Shown here in pieces: positions 8,020 to 16,821 of a stretch of DNA of 64,000 nucleotides. Numbering within the stretch: the stretch's first letter is position 1; each line of letters opens with the position of its first letter. Made by a program: the position numbers and the translations under genes. Under the pieces are notes generated by a model. That model was not told the origin of the DNA. It saw only the letters and a program-made list of their open reading frames with translations, and did no database searches. This DNA comes from Algorimicrobium echini (lineage in GTDB: Bacteria > Bacteroidota > Bacteroidia > Flavobacteriales > Flavobacteriaceae). The stretch spans positions 62,001-126,000 of the forward strand of contig NZ_FOVN01000001.1 of NCBI RefSeq assembly GCF_900115185.1, read 5' to 3'.

Positions 8020-8751
8020 TTAGATTTGAATTCCTTCGTATTTTACCTCATCGATAATTGTTTTAACATCTGAATTTACTTTTGGACTAAATAAATCACG
8101 ACTTATTGTATATGTGCTTAATTCGTTCTCATTGTAATTTAGATTAATTAATTCATTAATGCCATTTTCGTTTAAATCATCTTTTAACCATTCTTGTTCA
8201 AAGTCCTTTTGAAGTATTACCGGTTGTCTATTTTTTTTATTATGAATTTTTGCAAATAATGGTGATGCTTTTTTAGTAAGAATAGTAAAGGTAACAACAT
8301 CGCCAATTATTGTATATAACCCAGCTAAAGACAAAACATCGTTGTTTTTGTTCTTTATATGAAATGGATATTTTTTTCCTTTGTATTCGTGAGGTTCAAA
8401 AAATCCTGTTACAGGAATTATACAACGTCTTGTTAAGGCTGAATGTTTGTATATAAAATGATTAAATAATTTTTCGGATTGAGCATTAAGACCACCACCA
8501 TACCGAACAGCTTCTTTGTAATAATCGGTTAATTGTTCAGGTTTTTTATTGCCTGGAACTATACCCCATAATGCAGGTGCTAAAGCTGATGGACCTTCTT
8601 GTGGTATTATAAGCATATCAGGATGAGAAAAACCGTTTAAGTGGTATCTTGGAATATCATACGCTTCTCTTGCATCATCCCTTGTCAATGAAACATCATA
8701 GCGATTTTCAAGCTCAATTACTTTTTTAGTTTGAGAAGTATGGAAACACAT
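8020..8751 (-). CDS. SRAP (HMCES/YedK-type) abasic-site protein
   Basis: A 243-residue SOS-response-associated peptidase (SRAP) domain protein. Family members form a covalent link between Cys2 and abasic sites in single-stranded DNA and so shield them. The start at 8751 is fixed by MC, which puts the catalytic Cys at position 2. Other family landmarks are present: AQSEKLF (family ARSEK), the Glu in VTGFFEPHEYKG, and the His in KIHNKKNRQPVIL. It follows umuC by 31 bp and completes a umuD-umuC-SRAP operon, a sensible grouping for damage tolerance carried on a mobile element. Confidence 0.93.
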   Translation of the reverse strand: MCFHTSQTKKVIELENRYDVSLTRDDAREAYDIPRYHLNGFSHPDMLIIPQEGPSALAPALWGIVPGNKKPEQLTDYYKEAVRYGGGLNAQSEKLFNHFIYKHSALTRRCIIPVTGFFEPHEYKGKKYPFHIKNKNNDVLSLAGLYTIIGDVVTFTILTKKASPLFAKIHNKKNRQPVILQKDFEQEWLKDDLNENGINELINLNYNENELSTYTISRDLFSPKVNSDVKTIIDEVKYEGIQI

Positions 8752-8782
8752 AAGGTTTTATTTAGGTTACTAAATATACTAA

Positions 8783-10042
8783 TTAAACTCTTATATCGAT
8801 TATTTCATTAATGTTGGTTGAATATCGTGGGGATAGGCGTTCTTGTTTCATTTTCCATTGCCTACCTAATGATTGACTACCAAACTTTATTTTATTGTTA
8901 CCGTAGGCTTTATTTAGCCTATCTACGATATTCATTATTGGTTGGTGCTTTGGGTTTTCGGAAGTAAATAGCGTGAATTGTTTTTGATTACTTGGGGTTA
9001 AACCCATTACAATAACACCTGCTTTTTTATAATGAAAGCCCTCTCTATAAATTGCTTGTAACCCTGCCTCTGCATATTTAACTAAATCAATGCTCGAATT
9101 GGTTGGATAATGTGTTTTTACTACAATGTTTCTACCATATTGAGGTAAATCTTTACGGAAACCGTTGGTATGCAAAAATACCATAAGCATATTGCATTGT
9201 GATTTTTGATTACGAAGTTTTTCTGCACAGGACACAGCAAACGTAGATACACGTTCTCTAATATCTTGATATGATGTTAGCATTCCCTCAAATGAGCGTG
9301 TTGTTGCTATCATTTTCTTGTTTGCAGTAGTTTCTAAATCTAAAGTAGGTTTACCCTCTAAATCGTGTTTTAGACGTAAACCAACAACAGACATATTTTT
9401 ACGCACCCAATCATCTGACAGTTGGGAAAATTGATAAGCATTATGAATATTTAAGTTCTTTAGTCTTTTGGTATGTTGCCTACCAATACCCCAAACATCT
9501 TCGATTGGTAACCACTTTAAGGCTTTTATGCGCTTTTCTTCATCATCTATTACATAAACATTGTTAGTACGTTCTGGGAATTTCTTTGCTATTTTATTGG
9601 CAACTTTAGATAATGCTTTTGTTGGTGCAAAGCCAATACTTATTGGAATACCTGTACCTTTTGTTACACGATTACGCATTGTTTCACCTATTTCCTGAAG
9701 GCTAAAAAGTTCAAAACCTATAAACTTTAAAAATGCTTCGTCGATACTGTATATTTCAACTTCTGGTGTAAACTCTGAAAGTAGATTCATCACTCTACTA
9801 CTCATATCGCCATATAAAGCGTAATTTGAAGAAAAAACGTTTACGTTTTGTTTTTCAAATGTTTTAGAATATTCAAATGCAGGTGCGCCCATTGGAATAC
9901 CTAACGCTTTGGCCTCGTTGGATCTTGCAATAACACAACCATCGTTATTTGATAAAACCACTATAGGTTTATCATTTAATGATGGGTTAAAAACACGCTC
10001 ACAGGAAGCGTAGAAGTTATTGCAGTCAACGAGTGCGAACAT
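8783..10042 (-). CDS. umuC: Y-family DNA polymerase V catalytic subunit UmuC
   Basis: A 419-residue translesion polymerase. The N-terminal palm motif FALVDCNNFYASCERVFNP gives the first metal ligand Asp, and EIYSIDEAFL gives the second acidic pair. The finger/thumb region with a helix-hairpin-helix (LPIEDVWGIGRQHTKRL) and a C-terminal little-finger domain follow. The length is usual for UmuC. It starts 1 nt after the umuD-like stop codon and must be co-expressed with it. In the known system UmuD' and RecA activate UmuC for synthesis past lesions. Confidence 0.95.
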   Translation of the reverse strand: MFALVDCNNFYASCERVFNPSLNDKPIVVLSNNDGCVIARSNEAKALGIPMGAPAFEYSKTFEKQNVNVFSSNYALYGDMSSRVMNLLSEFTPEVEIYSIDEAFLKFIGFELFSLQEIGETMRNRVTKGTGIPISIGFAPTKALSKVANKIAKKFPERTNNVYVIDDEEKRIKALKWLPIEDVWGIGRQHTKRLKNLNIHNAYQFSQLSDDWVRKNMSVVGLRLKHDLEGKPTLDLETTANKKMIATTRSFEGMLTSYQDIRERVSTFAVSCAEKLRNQKSQCNMLMVFLHTNGFRKDLPQYGRNIVVKTHYPTNSSIDLVKYAEAGLQAIYREGFHYKKAGVIVMGLTPSNQKQFTLFTSENPKHQPIMNIVDRLNKAYGNNKIKFGSQSLGRQWKMKQERLSPRYSTNINEIIDIRV

Positions 10043-10043
10043 A

Positions 10044-10493
10044 TCATAGGTTTTTGATTACGTTAGTAACAATACCCCAAATGATAAAATCATTGTCTTT
10101 AGTGACTTGAATAGGTTTGTAATTTTGATTTTCTGCAATTAACCAAACACAGTCTTTTTCTATGCTAATGCGTTTAACTGTAAATTCACCATCAATAAAA
10201 CAAACAGCTATTTTGTTATTTGTAGGTTCTAAACTTTTATCAATAATTAGTAAATCACCATCGTGAATGCCTGCATCTATCATTGAATCACCACGAACAC
10301 GACCATAAAATGTTGTACTTGGGTTTTTAATTAGATGTTTATTGAGGTCTATGTTTATATCTAAAAAATCATCTGCTGGGGATGGAAACCCTGCACTAAT
10401 ACCATTAGCCACAAAAGGCAATTTTAGATGTGTTGAAACATCTGCACCATAAAATTCTATTGCTCTTGTGTTATATAATTTTCTGACTTGCAT
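10044..10493 (-). CDS. umuD: UmuD-like self-cleaving S24 peptidase
   Basis: A 149-residue LexA/UmuD-type S24 peptidase without an HTH domain. The likely self-cleavage site is the Ala-Gly pair in GISAGFPSP (about residues 31-39). The catalytic Ser is in GDSMIDAGI and the catalytic Lys in FTVKRIS. Cleavage after contact with RecA filaments would give UmuD', the partner of the UmuC encoded 1 nt downstream. A TAACTTTG box ends 4 nt before the start codon, so the mRNA may be leaderless or nearly so. A perfect TTGAAACTTTCAA palindrome lies just upstream. Confidence 0.93.
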   Translation of the reverse strand: MQVRKLYNTRAIEFYGADVSTHLKLPFVANGISAGFPSPADDFLDINIDLNKHLIKNPSTTFYGRVRGDSMIDAGIHDGDLLIIDKSLEPTNNKIAVCFIDGEFTVKRISIEKDCVWLIAENQNYKPIQVTKDNDFIIWGIVTNVIKNL

Positions 10494-11294: not shown

Positions 11295-11531
11295 TTAAGC
11301 TGCTAGTGCGTAATTATTCTCGCCTGCTTTTTCAAAAAGAGCATCAGAATTACTAACTATAACATATTTAGGTTTTAATTTTTCCATACTTATATTTACA
11401 GATTCACCATTGAATAAACACTCCATTGTTTCTCTTTCCTCTGCAAAATCTATCCATTGTTGAATCTTTTCTTCAGAGAATGAAGAAAGAATTTCATCAA
11501 ATTGTTTATCTAATTTATCTATATCTAACAT
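11295..11531 (-). CDS. Antitoxin with encoded ssrA-like tail (CmdA-like)
   Basis: A 78-residue acidic protein. A helical N-terminal part (about residues 1-38, with SEEKIQQWIDFAEERETM) is followed by a short segment MEKLKPKYVIVSNSDALFEK and the C-terminus AGENNYALAA (69-78). The last six residues equal those of the E. coli ssrA tag, and GENNYALAA is, from memory, the tag of some Bacteroidota tmRNAs. The protein should therefore be a ClpXP substrate unless its tail is covered. The gene lies between a toxin candidate (10 nt upstream) and a SecB-like chaperone (4 nt downstream), the order of TAC systems. No DNA-binding domain is obvious. The antitoxin role is inferred from context, size and tail. 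Confidence 0.75.
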   Translation of the reverse strand: MLDIDKLDKQFDEILSSFSEEKIQQWIDFAEERETMECLFNGESVNISMEKLKPKYVIVSNSDALFEKAGENNYALAA

Positions 11532-11541
11532 TTTAATCTAC

Positions 11542-12108
11542 TTAATTTTGCTCTTCTAAATGCAGTGCAAAGTTACTAATATTATCAATACCAAATGAAA
11601 CTAACTGTATTCTTTTCTTATAATAAAAAAAGGAATGTCTTTTATCTTCTGAATGTATTACTACAGAATATTTACGGTTTGGTTTATGATTTACATTAAT
11701 AGGCATATCATCATAAATTATGCCTTTTATACCCATCTTGTCCCAAAAATTGTCAGCTAAAAATTGATGAAGCCTTTTAAGTGTTACAGTCTTATTTTTT
11801 TTAATAAAATGATTTGATGCTTTTTCTATCCATTTCTTAAATGCAAAATAATGTTTTTCATTAAAAACCGTATTTAAAAAATCTGTTATATCAACTTCTA
11901 CACTGTAAACATCATAAGCGCCGGTACTCATTTTAAAATCTTCACCCCAATATTTTGCAAATTCTTCATCTACCCAGAAGTAATAACCTTTACCAAGCCA
12001 AGCATCTTTAGATATACATATAATAGGTTCATCAATTACACCTTCTACACGAAACTCTTGAGTGTGATAACATATAATATGGTTGTCAGTTTTACCTCTT
12101 AACATCAT
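11542..12108 (-). CDS. ADP-ribosyltransferase-like toxin (CmdT-like)
   Basis: A 188-residue protein with features of the ADP-ribosyltransferase fold: a histidine motif in IICYHTQ (His15), a GKGYYFWVDEEFAKYW block (39-54) like the glycine-aromatic NAD-binding strand and helix of PARP/DUF3990-like enzymes, and an acidic strand YSVEVDITDFLN (68-79). The frame opens at a GTG at 12114 that overlaps the res stop. The ATG at 12108 is preferred and leaves a 2-nt gap. As the first gene of a toxin-antitoxin-SecB-like trio it matches CmdT, which modifies mRNA with ADP-ribose in E. coli and blocks translation. The target here is unknown, and the fold assignment is by eye. Confidence 0.72.
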   Translation of the reverse strand: MMLRGKTDNHIICYHTQEFRVEGVIDEPIICISKDAWLGKGYYFWVDEEFAKYWGEDFKMSTGAYDVYSVEVDITDFLNTVFNEKHYFAFKKWIEKASNHFIKKNKTVTLKRLHQFLADNFWDKMGIKGIIYDDMPINVNHKPNRKYSVVIHSEDKRHSFFYYKKRIQLVSFGIDNISNFALHLEEQN

Positions 12109-12110
12109 AA

Positions 12111-14723
12111 TCACAAACTATTTAATTTCTCAATAAATATATCTTCTCTGTTAGCTTTATTATAGAATGGCATACCAATAAGTTTATATTGTTGACTTTC
12201 GTATAATTCTATTACTGCTTCTTTTTCTATTTCTTGAAGGAATTGTTCTTTCCATTCATCATTATATAGTAAGTGATCACCTTTTGGTTCTATGAATAAT
12301 TGATAAATAACCTCATCATCTGAATTTTTATCTGTCATATATAACACAAAGTCTGGTTCTGTTGCTTTTGCATCACTAAACCTGTATAACTTAAAGAAAC
12401 GTTCGTTTCTTAATAAATAGATGTTTTTAAAACGCTCTTTTAAATCTTCAATATTATCGTGGAAATACTTTACTAAAAACTTTTCTTCTGATGAACCATA
12501 ATTCTCATTGTAAGCATACCAATCTGCTTTGTTCAAGTCTACAAAATATTCTTGAGGAATATCATTACGCATTGTTGGTTTTCCTGTTTCTGCTGTAGTA
12601 TTTTGATTTACTGAAAACGCTAATTTCTTATTCTTGAAATACTTTCTTAATGGTTCTCTGTAGAATGATTTTGTACCTCTATAATCTCCAAACTTGGTAG
12701 ATATTTCATTTGCTATTTTGGTAGCTACACTTATAACAATTTCTAATTTTTGATTTGCAGATAGGTTGTTTGTATCCTTTTGTAAACCTGTTACTTCAAC
12801 TATAATGCCGCCAAAATACTTTTCATTTGTAATAAAATCATTCATAGATTTTACACTTGGAAAAAACTTTTTGATGTTATTGAAGTGGTAAAATGGTATT
12901 TTATTTAAACCCTTTTGAATAATTGTTTTATCCCATAAAGAAAACAAATGTTTATTTGCATAATTTGCTTGTACTGTATTTTGCTTTACTCTGTTATTAT
13001 CTAATATTACCGTTTGAGCTGACCTATTTGTTTTTAATGCGTAAGTGTGCTTTTTTACAATAGTTGGCTCTTGATATTCTAATAATGTTTTTGGGTTGTT
13101 TTTAACCTTTTTATTTAAAAATATAAAACCACTTTTATATAAAGCTGTTTCTTTAAATTCATCTTTAAGAATTAAATCTACTTCTACTTTTTCTTCAGGA
13201 AACATTCCTATTTGACGAAGTGCATTATTTAATTCAGTAATATATCTTGGGTTGTGTGAGCAATGATAATGTAAAGTCTCGCAAAAACGCATTATGTTTT
13301 CTAAATCATTATCGTATTTACGTTTGTCTAATTCTTGATTTTCTTCTAATTGAAATGGATAATATCTTGCACCTCTACCAATTAATTGTGCTTCTGCAAC
13401 TGTAGTTTTTCCAGGTGTGCTACCTTTGGCATCACGAGTATCATATAATCTAACAATATCGTATAAGTTTAAAACATCCCAACCCTCATTTAATTTATCT
13501 ACTGCAAATACTGCTCTAATTTCATTATTATTATCCTCTAACGTATTAATAGTTATTTGTTTTTCGTCACTATCATTTTTAGAATTTACAGAAACAATTT
13601 TATCTTCTGTAAAGTCTTCTTTAATTTCATCAATCAAACCTTGTGATGATATATTTAACTCTTTAAAATATGCTATTGCTTTATCTAAAATTGCATTATC
13701 TAATTTTATAAGATTCTCTAATTTAGTAACAGTTAAGTTTCTTATTTCATCAATAAATGCTTTTTCCATTTCAGCACTTTCTGTAGTTGTTTTAGATTTA
13801 AACATTACTACTGGTTTTGCTAAAATGCCTTTAGACGCAAATATTTTCTTTTTAAACTGACTTATTAATACTGCAACAATTGCACGTTGTATAGGTTGAT
13901 AATCTACTTGGTTGGTTTGCACTTCTTTTGAGTAACCATCTTCTCTAAACTTTGCTAATGAATAATCATATAATAATTTATCTGCGTATTTAGATGCTAT
14001 ATTAGGATGATTGAGGTCTAATGTAGCTGTAAACTCCATCATTATATTGTTTACATTGCTTCTTAAAATACGCTCAACTGTATATTCCCAACTATTAAAA
14101 TCTTCCTTCTCTCCTTTGCTTAATTTCTTTTTTGTAAGTGTGTTTATGTGGTGTGCCTCATCACTAATTAAAACAACTTCTTTGTTTAAAAAATCATCAA
14201 AAGTTATACTGTTTTCTCTTGGTGCATTTAGTTTGGTATGTAAGCCTTGAATGGTTGAAAACAGTATGCTAATATCATCTGTATTGGTGCTTTCAAAACT
14301 TTCTACTTCTGTAATATTTACATTTACACCATCTATATTAATTTGCTCTTTGAATAAATATTTAGTGCTGTTTGGGTTTAAGAAGTTTTCTTTTGTTTTA
14401 CGGATAATAGTATCTGTATTTACAAAGAAAATAAAGTTACGATAGCCCATTTTATACAACTCTAACATTGCACCTGCCATTACCAAGGTTTTACCAGAAC
14501 CTGTTGCCATATGAAACAACACTTGTGTTGGTTTTGCTCTTAAACGTGGGTTATTTATGTAATAGTTAAAGTGTGTAAACGCTTCTTCTTGATAAGGACG
14601 TGGTGCAAACTTTAGATTATTTTTAATAATGGGTGATAATTCTACAATTAAATCACCATCATCAATTTTGGATGCAATACGCTTGTCTAAACGTTGAATA
14701 GTATTTTGGTTAAACAATGACAT
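12111..14723 (-). CDS. res: Type III restriction enzyme, Res subunit
   Basis: An 870-residue helicase-nuclease. The N-terminal superfamily 2 helicase has the Q-like region APRPYQEEAF (40-49), Walker A HMATGSGKT (71-79), motif II DEAH (188-191) and motif VI near EAQLIGRGARYY. At the C-terminus EPDFVLYM...LFIEPKGD fits the PD-(D/E)xK nuclease of type III Res subunits. It needs the Mod partner encoded 2 genes upstream to recognise DNA. The gene lies 2 nt after the small DUF1737-like gene and 2 nt before the toxin gene, so restriction and toxin genes share one transcript. No frame damage is seen. Confidence 0.93.
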   Translation of the reverse strand: MSLFNQNTIQRLDKRIASKIDDGDLIVELSPIIKNNLKFAPRPYQEEAFTHFNYYINNPRLRAKPTQVLFHMATGSGKTLVMAGAMLELYKMGYRNFIFFVNTDTIIRKTKENFLNPNSTKYLFKEQINIDGVNVNITEVESFESTNTDDISILFSTIQGLHTKLNAPRENSITFDDFLNKEVVLISDEAHHINTLTKKKLSKGEKEDFNSWEYTVERILRSNVNNIMMEFTATLDLNHPNIASKYADKLLYDYSLAKFREDGYSKEVQTNQVDYQPIQRAIVAVLISQFKKKIFASKGILAKPVVMFKSKTTTESAEMEKAFIDEIRNLTVTKLENLIKLDNAILDKAIAYFKELNISSQGLIDEIKEDFTEDKIVSVNSKNDSDEKQITINTLEDNNNEIRAVFAVDKLNEGWDVLNLYDIVRLYDTRDAKGSTPGKTTVAEAQLIGRGARYYPFQLEENQELDKRKYDNDLENIMRFCETLHYHCSHNPRYITELNNALRQIGMFPEEKVEVDLILKDEFKETALYKSGFIFLNKKVKNNPKTLLEYQEPTIVKKHTYALKTNRSAQTVILDNNRVKQNTVQANYANKHLFSLWDKTIIQKGLNKIPFYHFNNIKKFFPSVKSMNDFITNEKYFGGIIVEVTGLQKDTNNLSANQKLEIVISVATKIANEISTKFGDYRGTKSFYREPLRKYFKNKKLAFSVNQNTTAETGKPTMRNDIPQEYFVDLNKADWYAYNENYGSSEEKFLVKYFHDNIEDLKERFKNIYLLRNERFFKLYRFSDAKATEPDFVLYMTDKNSDDEVIYQLFIEPKGDHLLYNDEWKEQFLQEIEKEAVIELYESQQYKLIGMPFYNKANREDIFIEKLNSL

Positions 14724-14725
14724 AT

Positions 14726-14890
14726 CTAATCTTTAATTATTGCTTGATAAAAATAGTTTGCAGCAGTAACTTTATCTGACCTTATGATTAAACCACCACT
14801 TGGACGCCAACCTTTTTCTAAATACTCATTAACTAGTTTTTCAAAGTCTTTTTCGAAATGTGTATCTAATTTTAATATTTTATATTTCAT
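14726..14890 (-). CDS. 54-residue DUF1737-like protein between mod and res
   Basis: A short frame starting at ATG 14890 and ending with TAG at 14726-14728. The protein starts MKYKILKLD, has ELYLEKGW-type spacing (VNEYLEKGWRPSGGLII) and ends ANYFYQAIIKD. The GW.P.GGL core followed by YYQA is the pattern of DUF1737. It lies 2 nt after the mod stop and 2 nt before the res start, so it is clearly part of the operon. Its role is unknown; it could be a small accessory, inhibitor or anti-toxin-like protein of the restriction system. It is too short for many gene callers. Confidence 0.85.
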   Translation of the reverse strand: MKYKILKLDTHFEKDFEKLVNEYLEKGWRPSGGLIIRSDKVTAANYFYQAIIKD

Positions 14891-14892
14891 TA

Positions 14893-16821
14893 TTAATTTT
14901 TATAAAATGAATAGTTTAACGCTTTATCTGCTTCACTGATATTGAAACTTTCATCTTCAATCTCGCTAAAGTTTACACACAATTGGTTTTTATCTAATAT
15001 CTCTATTAAATACTGTTGCATAGTCTGTAATGAAGCTGTTTTAAAAGCGTCTAAACGCTTATTGAACATATCTTTATCGAATTGGTAAGAAATAAACGCT
15101 TTGTCTTGCATTTCTTCCCAAACAGATAAAATATCTTCTTTAGTTTTAGCTTCTTGTATTTTATTTATAAAGTATTGGTTGTATTGCATTAGTTCTGCAT
15201 AAACAAATGAGCCACCACCTTGCCATTCAACATCTTTAGAAATACCACCTTGTTCTCCTTCAATTACTTTTTGCAATCTTTTAGTAGTAATAGTGTTTAT
15301 ATAGTCCATTTGCTCAACACCAATATACTTACGATTCATTTTGTGAGCTACAGCTGCGGTTGTACCACTGCCTAAATGATAATCTAAAACAATATCATTT
15401 TCGTTAGTACATATATGTATGATATTTTGAATTAAATATTCAGATTTAGGAAAACCAAATACTTTTTTACCAAAAAGACTATCTAGTTCTTTAGTACCTT
15501 TATTGCTTATGAAATTCTTATTAAACCATACAGTTTTTTCCATAGTTGTATTTGACCTATATTTTTGGTAAACCCTATAAACACCATCTGAACTTTTTCG
15601 AGAAATTAAATGTTCTTCTTGGTTTTCTTTGGATTTTTCTTTACCCCATCGCCAAACACTTTCATTACCATTAACAGTAATAGGAAATACTTCTAACCAA
15701 CCCTCTTTTTGAGCAACTGATACTTTACAAAAACCATTTTCATCTTCAGAAGTTTCATCTATATAAAATGGATATCTTAAATTCGGACGATTTGTAGAGT
15801 TAAAAGCATTTGCATTTTGATTTCTCAAATCTGTTAAATCAAAGCCACCGTTAGAATCTTTATATCTAAATTTATGACCTACTTTATTAATTTCATTAGT
15901 TTTAGCATTATCTAAATTTTTAGCATACATTAAAATATATTCATGTGTTTTTGCAAGATTACCATAACGTCTACCCTCTGTTTTGACAATAGTCGTAATA
16001 CAGTTATCAAAATTAACTCTACCAAATATCTCGTCAAGCATAACCTTTAAATAAGCTTGTTCATTATCATCACATTGAACTAATATAAAACCATCTTTTG
16101 ACAATAATTGTTTAGCTATAACCAACCTGTTTTTCATAAAAGTTAACCAAGCAGAATGATTGAAATTATCATTATATTGAAAACTATCTGAACCTGTATT
16201 ATAAGGTGGGTCTATATAAATAAGTTTTATTTTACCTCTATGTGTTTTTAGCAATGAAGAAAGTACTAATAAGTTGTTTCCTTTTAAGATAAGGTTTTCA
16301 TCTCCTGTAAACTCTGTTACTTTATGCTTGCCATCTTTATCGTATTTTTTAAAGTTGGTAAATGCTTTTGCATCTAATAATCTATCTACATTATCTGGTG
16401 CAAGTGTTTCATTCCAGAATATCTCGTTTCGTTTTTGGTCTTCTTTGGTTTGCCCTCCTTCTAAAACACAATCTTTATGAGGCCATACTAACACAACATC
16501 GTTTTTAGCTTTTATAAAATTGTCTGTAGTATCATCATTAATAGCTAAACCTATTTTATTTTTAAAGGCTGTATAGCTATCAGGCAAAAAAGACTTATTG
16601 TTTACAAACCTTTGAAACTTAATTTTATCGAACACCAGTACATTTTCTACTTCTTGAAAGAAGTGTTTTTTAAAGGTGTCGTTTTTAATTAACAGGCTTA
16701 TTAAAAAGGGTTCTACCTTTAAAGCAGCTTCAATTATTTTGTTTTTATTCAATTGGTTATCTACTACTAAATTATCTTGGTCTTTAAGTAGCTCTATAAG
16801 GTCGGTTTGTAAGTTTTGCAT
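14893..16821 (-). CDS. mod: Type III DNA methyltransferase, Mod subunit
   Basis: A 642-residue beta-class adenine-N6 methyltransferase. Motif IV DPPY is at 204-207 (YIDPPYNTGSD). The target recognition region follows (about 300-430), and then motif I LDYHLGSGTTAAVAH and YIGVEQM bind S-adenosylmethionine. This IV-then-I order is that of type III Mod proteins. A C-terminal region likely contacts Res. I see no long simple-sequence repeat that would give phase variation. It is the first gene of the six-gene defence operon. A TATTTTTG box (minus strand, 16853-16860) lies 32 nt upstream of the start codon but without a clear -33 element. Confidence 0.94.
   Translation of the reverse strand: MQNLQTDLIELLKDQDNLVVDNQLNKNKIIEAALKVEPFLISLLIKNDTFKKHFFQEVENVLVFDKIKFQRFVNNKSFLPDSYTAFKNKIGLAINDDTTDNFIKAKNDVVLVWPHKDCVLEGGQTKEDQKRNEIFWNETLAPDNVDRLLDAKAFTNFKKYDKDGKHKVTEFTGDENLILKGNNLLVLSSLLKTHRGKIKLIYIDPPYNTGSDSFQYNDNFNHSAWLTFMKNRLVIAKQLLSKDGFILVQCDDNEQAYLKVMLDEIFGRVNFDNCITTIVKTEGRRYGNLAKTHEYILMYAKNLDNAKTNEINKVGHKFRYKDSNGGFDLTDLRNQNANAFNSTNRPNLRYPFYIDETSEDENGFCKVSVAQKEGWLEVFPITVNGNESVWRWGKEKSKENQEEHLISRKSSDGVYRVYQKYRSNTTMEKTVWFNKNFISNKGTKELDSLFGKKVFGFPKSEYLIQNIIHICTNENDIVLDYHLGSGTTAAVAHKMNRKYIGVEQMDYINTITTKRLQKVIEGEQGGISKDVEWQGGGSFVYAELMQYNQYFINKIQEAKTKEDILSVWEEMQDKAFISYQFDKDMFNKRLDAFKTASLQTMQQYLIEILDKNQLCVNFSEIEDESFNISEADKALNYSFYKN

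Follow-up and report, generated by a model that had tools for sequence, protein, structure and literature searches.

Why does a small antitoxin gene of Algorimicrobium echini end by encoding the very peptide that its host's tmRNA adds to proteins at stalled ribosomes? The gene lies in a 64,000-nucleotide stretch of contig NZ_FOVN01000001.1 (hereafter the window), between a toxin gene and a gene for a SecB-like chaperone (Table 1), and its 78-residue product has the C-terminus FEKAGENNYALAA. The first-pass annotation, made from the letters alone, had read an AGENNYALAA ending, named GENNYALAA as the tag of some Bacteroidota tmRNAs and proposed that the antitoxin mimics a tmRNA-tagged protein. 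The ending is confirmed by the open reading frame and its codons (11327-11295: GCA GGC GAG AAT AAT TAC GCA CTA GCA GCT TAA), and GENNYALAA is indeed a tmRNA tag of Bacteroidota. The source genome itself contains a tmRNA gene (G000:C9:1672-2067, minus strand; 147 bits to Rfam RF00023) in which ARAGORN finds the tag GENNYALAA, identical to the antitoxin tail. During trans-translation the alanine carried by Ala-tmRNA precedes the encoded tag, and a tagged protein ends in Ala+GENNYALAA; the match between antitoxin and host tag thus extends over 10/10 residues. At the DNA level 5 of the 30 bases differ, all of them silent, so that the identity resides in the protein and not in freshly copied DNA.

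Table 1. Features of the toxin-antitoxin-chaperone operon and the adjoining restriction genes (window coordinates).
Feature	Position	Strand	Basis
SecB-like chaperone gene, CmdC-like, 133 aa	10889..11290	-	PADLOC PD-T4-9_C E=4e-29
Antitoxin gene, CmdA-like, 78 aa	11295..11531	-	ORF; sits between toxin and SecB-like gene
Antitoxin stop codon	11295-11297	-	
ssrA-tag mimic AGENNYALAA, antitoxin C-terminus	11298..11327	-	Identical to Ala plus the tag encoded by the source genome's tmRNA
Toxin gene, CmdT-like, ADP-ribosyltransferase-like fold	11542..12114	-	PADLOC PD-T4-9_A E=6e-14
Type III restriction subunit (res)	12111..14723	-	PADLOC REase_III E=7e-141
DUF1737 gene, 54-aa product, flanked by res and mod	14726..14890	-	Pfam PF08410 E=3e-7
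Type III modification methyltransferase (mod)	14893..16821	-	PADLOC MTase_III E=4e-191

Judged by its sequence, the operon is a toxin-antitoxin-chaperone (TAC) phage-defence module of the CmdTAC kind, formerly PD-T4-9 (PMC9519451), an assignment that we make because both the toxin and the chaperone match the corresponding PADLOC models. The toxin (190 residues from a GTG at 12114, or 188 from an ATG at 12108) has a histidine (H15) and the tyrosine of a GYYFW motif (Y43) that are conserved in 37-38 homologues of a 38-row alignment; its AlphaFold2 model has a pLDDT of 88 and finds its best PDB fold matches, although weak (E 0.02), among PARP ADP-ribosyltransferases. The chaperone also matches the Pfam SecB family (PF02556, E=1e-10), and its gene begins 4 bases past the antitoxin stop; sequence-profile searches of the PDB with toxin and chaperone gave no match. 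The antitoxin, whose relatives are 30-60% identical, matched nothing above the curated cut-offs of Pfam and NCBIfam and nothing in PADLOC. Its AlphaFold2 model has helices at residues 4-17 and 20-40, which are presumed to bind the toxin, and a pLDDT below 50 over residues 49-78, so the tail is presumably disordered. The source genome encodes ClpX.

The module stands directly behind a type III restriction operon on the same strand (mod-DUF1737-res-toxin-antitoxin-chaperone, with toxin to mod spanning 11542-16821), and the junction sequence shows the end of res overlapping the possible GTG start of the toxin by 4 bases. At four other loci (L060, L062, L091 and L097) a helicase or restriction-type gene ends about 16 bases or less from the start of a CmdT-type toxin, and the coupling of restriction and TAC genes may recur. 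On the other side (8020-10493) the module is adjoined by three genes that, by sequence reading, resemble an SRAP-type peptidase, a UmuC-like polymerase and a UmuD/LexA-like protease.

How specific is such an ending? A degenerate DNA pattern for GENNYALAA followed by a stop codon was run on 296 Bacteroidota genomes, with the reversed pattern as a control. The pattern matched 35 times and the control 0 times. Of the matches, 32 fall in tmRNA genes and one in a second, degenerate tmRNA-like copy; the other two are TAC antitoxins, both adjoining SecB-like genes: that of the window and one in genome G238, a protein of 128 residues identical in sequence to an antitoxin of Bacteroides ihuae (L080), with a HEPN protein as the neighbouring toxin. 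The search found no further protein with this end in the 296 genomes. The degenerate tmRNA-like gene (L012 / L017, G103:C1:772761-773172; 49 bits) is not called by ARAGORN and still encodes GENNYALAA-stop.

The host-tag tail is nonetheless not confined to this gene but belongs to a family of ssrA-like tails. An alignment-based scan of GTDB genomes for SecB-like proteins returned 80 loci and a family-level search yielded 11 genomes; the host tmRNA tag was at hand for 59 antitoxins. The commonest residues at positions -9 to -1 of these 59 tails spell the tag: G (11), E (20), N (16), N (21), Y (34), A (26), L (36), A (58) and A (53). The comparison of homologous tails that had been suggested as a check therefore finds the end kept, almost invariantly at -2 and -1 (58/59 and 53/59) and in 36/59 at -3. 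At positions -9 to -4 the tails share 128 identities with the own tag, whereas shuffling gives 25 and never more than 41 in 2000 rounds, and an AA end is present in 59/64 TAC antitoxins of the Bacteroidota set versus 0/336 other open reading frames of the same loci. Nine antitoxins end in the exact tag (the window, L021, L022, L059, L066, L067, L071, L075 and L080), of which L021 is not independent of the window, its chaperone being 99% identical, and L022 comes from a host whose own tag was not found. The preceding residue is alanine in 6 of the nine and serine in 3. Leaving out the near-identical pair, the bodies that bear these tails are about 19 to 91% identical. The full tag is carried by the window cluster (with L022) and by the HEPN-type antitoxins L059, L066, L067, L071, L075 and L080, bodies that, the L059/L067/L075 group excepted, are mostly 27-43% identical; it thus accompanies ADP-ribosyltransferase-like and HEPN toxins alike. 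Because single-linkage clustering chained most antitoxin bodies together, in a group of 41, the number of independent origins is uncertain. We conclude that the host-tag tail is a real, specific and recurrent feature. The claim that the antitoxin mimics a tmRNA-tagged protein is in turn supported by the identical host tag and by homologues that keep the end. Most relatives retain xAA or LAA alone, however, which indicates that the TAC principle does not depend on GENNY.

Several variants surround this pattern. A common Bacteroidota TAC type (L010, L059, L066, L067, L071, L075, L080 and others) combines a HEPN-type toxin of about 112-155 residues with an antitoxin of 121-158 residues and a SecB-like chaperone; one such antitoxin was scanned and gave no Pfam match above cut-off and no PADLOC match. 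In E. coli, blastn brought up a single divergent system, present in two genomes (L187/L188); its antitoxin ends in AQAA and lacks the full tag. CmdT-type systems with the gene order antitoxin-chaperone-toxin (L007, L008, L095, L100, L104, L106 and L184) mostly lack the AA end, and their antitoxins end in Phe-rich sequences such as SSDFFLSKT, SSEFLF and NLRVSF, possibly a different degron or masking mode; L092 and L096 have this order, yet an AA end.

Do the tails follow the tag of each host, or that of the phylum? In the 22 hosts with a variant 9-residue tag, tail identities amount to 91 with the own tag and 94 with generic GENNYALAA. Host-by-host coevolution of tail and tag within Bacteroidota is therefore unsupported, and the mimicry targets the phylum's usual tag, since tails in variant-tag hosts resemble generic GENNYALAA as closely as they do the host's own tag. 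A naive permutation of own against other hosts' tags gave P=0.0004 with relatedness ignored. Among tails with a known host tag, methionine at -3 occurs solely in hosts with AMAA tags; there are two such cases (L023 and L042), a number that carries little weight, and local adaptation of tails to the host tag is possible. One metagenome-assembled genome (G837), probably a mixed bin, has two tmRNA genes (L164 and L134) with the tags GEDNYALAA and AENNNLAFAA; its TAC antitoxin (L097) ends in GSNNYALAA.

Comparison was also made with 29 proteobacterial, plasmid and phage or prophage TAC tails, including IMG/VR contigs without assigned hosts. The AA end is present in 28/29 of them and YALAA in few, and identity to GENNYA at positions -9 to -4 is 0.8 as compared with 2.3 in the Bacteroidota set. 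SspB is the best-known adaptor reading the upstream half of the tag, and ND..[YF] is the core of the SspB-binding AANDENY of the proteobacterial tag. This core occurs in 9/29 of these tails, four of the nine being one close group, versus 1/64 of the Bacteroidota set (shuffles, 0.58 in 29); examples are L203 (ASNDESYSLAA) and L179 (ACNDENY, farther from the end). Another example is L043, with the tail ACNDDDYGNSLAA in a host whose tag ARAGORN gives as ANDDNYALAA. A test on the whole distribution, scoring each tail by its best match to AANDENY, gave no significant result (P=0.55). SspB was found in 6/6 proteobacterial TAC hosts tested and was absent from 5/5 Bacteroidota genomes tested. Within the ssrA tag the SspB and ClpX parts act as modules, and the tag remains functional when four residues are inserted between the two (PMC8512704, PMC8138137). 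That some proteobacterial TAC antitoxins copy the SspB-binding core of the proteobacterial tag is a lead suggested by these sequences.

What might the tail do? The CmdTAC toxin ADP-ribosylates mRNA at GA dinucleotides. In the CmdTAC system of E. coli, the antitoxin CmdA ends in LAA like other TAC antitoxins and is degraded by ClpP; the chaperone CmdC shields it, the T4 capsid protein Gp23 titrates CmdC, and CmdA is lost during T4 infection (PMC11618068). A similar release has been reported for HigBAC with a lambda tail protein (PMC11980606), and in the TAC system of M. tuberculosis the ChAD holds both the site for the chaperone and the degron for ClpX (PMC8165232). The homology allows the CmdTAC mechanism to be carried over to the window operon, and the model of the first-pass annotation is in this way well supported. 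We propose that the last ten residues of the disordered tail would be a gene-encoded copy of the end of a trans-translation product (Ala+GENNYALAA), through which the antitoxin would look to ClpXP like a tmRNA-tagged protein. The SecB-like chaperone would normally hold and hide this tail; a phage product, which on the model of the relatives would be a capsid or tail protein, would take the chaperone away and expose the tag, ClpXP would destroy the antitoxin, and the freed ADP-ribosyltransferase-like toxin would stop translation. We infer ClpXP degradation, chaperone masking, the phage trigger and toxin activity from the published relatives. As a whole explanation, a CmdTAC-type module whose tag-mimicking antitoxin bears a chaperone-masked ClpXP degron has, in our estimate, a probability of about 0.78.

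The closest known system is CmdTAC of E. coli ECOR22 (PMC11618068, PMC9519451), which has the same toxin-antitoxin-chaperone gene order and shares with the window operon a homologous toxin with conserved His and Tyr and a SecB-like chaperone. CmdA, as published, likewise pairs two N-terminal helices with a disordered tail that finishes in LAA, and CmdA sequences are reported to vary widely (PMC9519451). Unlike that of CmdTAC, however, the window antitoxin has the complete tag of its host's tmRNA, alanine included, as its C-terminus; the operon also belongs to another phylum, its toxin is moderately similar by profile, and it is joined to a type III restriction operon. HigBAC of M. tuberculosis (Rv1955-1957) resembles the arrangement proposed here in that its SecB-like chaperone covers a C-terminal degron recognised by ClpXP, but its toxin and antitoxin are unrelated to those of the window and ssrA-tag identity of the ChAD is not described (PMC8165232, PMC9753991). 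The HEPN-antitoxin-SecB loci (L010/L080 of Bacteroides ihuae, L059, L066 and L071) share the tag-identical tail, preceded by S or A, and the SecB-like partner, but differ in the HEPN toxin and a longer antitoxin body (121-135 residues). Finally, the tmRNA tag itself is identical to the antitoxin tail, and the two presumably serve the same protease as a signal; it is added at a stalled ribosome, whereas the antitoxin tail is written in the gene.

Other origins and functions of the tail may be considered. It could be that the last three to five residues (YALAA or LAA) alone matter as a ClpX degron, GENN being drift or a preference for a short polar linker. Many TAC antitoxins indeed end in LAA or xAA alone, only ALAA touches the ClpX pore in E. 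coli (PMC8512704), and both the absence of SspB from the Bacteroidota genomes tested and the failure of the tails to track host tag variants point the same way. We nevertheless consider it unlikely: identity at positions -9 to -4 exceeds that of shuffled tails fivefold, the exact nine residues reappear on bodies down to 27-30% identity, and the upstream residues follow the phylum. That the tail arose by recombination with a tmRNA gene, as a recent functionless accident, would account for the exact protein match to the own tag but is hardly credible given the five silent differences from the own tmRNA, the codons of the other exact tails (GGT or GGA and GCA, where tmRNAs mostly have GGC and GCT) and the recurrence of the motif across the phylum. 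Capture at the DNA level is rejected on account of these silent-site differences.

The tail might also be mainly a chaperone site of the ChAD kind, its ssrA likeness stemming from a chaperone that recognises ssrA-like peptides and degradation being secondary. The tail is terminal and predicted to be disordered, and the shared ChAD region of M. tuberculosis (PMC8165232) offers a precedent; the near-invariant part, though, is the C-terminal AA, which is more easily explained as a degron for ClpX than as a site for SecB, and several systems with the antitoxin-chaperone-toxin order (L007, L008, L095 and L104) keep a SecB-like partner while their tails are Phe-rich, which makes this quite improbable. 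A related idea, in our view a long shot, is that the host ssrA tag is a ligand of the SecB-like chaperone in its own right, with tmRNA-tagged proteins competing against the antitoxin for this chaperone. If so, the module would sense trans-translation load and not phage structural proteins alone, and a flood of tagged proteins from phage-induced ribosome stalling or mRNA cleavage would compete.

The LAA degron of TAC antitoxins was already known, and the mechanism is known in kind; the new part is the match to the whole host tag, and the open-access literature searched for GENNYALAA yielded no statement that TAC antitoxins end in one. We infer only that the whole tag, beyond LAA, may be favoured by selection as the form to which the host machinery is tuned. 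The whole-tag tail across the phylum suggests an antitoxin built for destruction unless its partner chaperone shields the tail. The tail also offers an inexpensive search criterion: a gene whose product carries the tmRNA tag of its host at the C-terminus may encode a TAC-like antitoxin, even where the body has diverged beyond the reach of profile searches. Should the host's own ssrA tag be the degron, sometimes with an adaptor site in SspB-bearing hosts, antitoxin decay would be tied to core quality control. This would help to explain in which hosts a given module works, and the outcome should then differ with phages that modify ClpXP or trans-translation.
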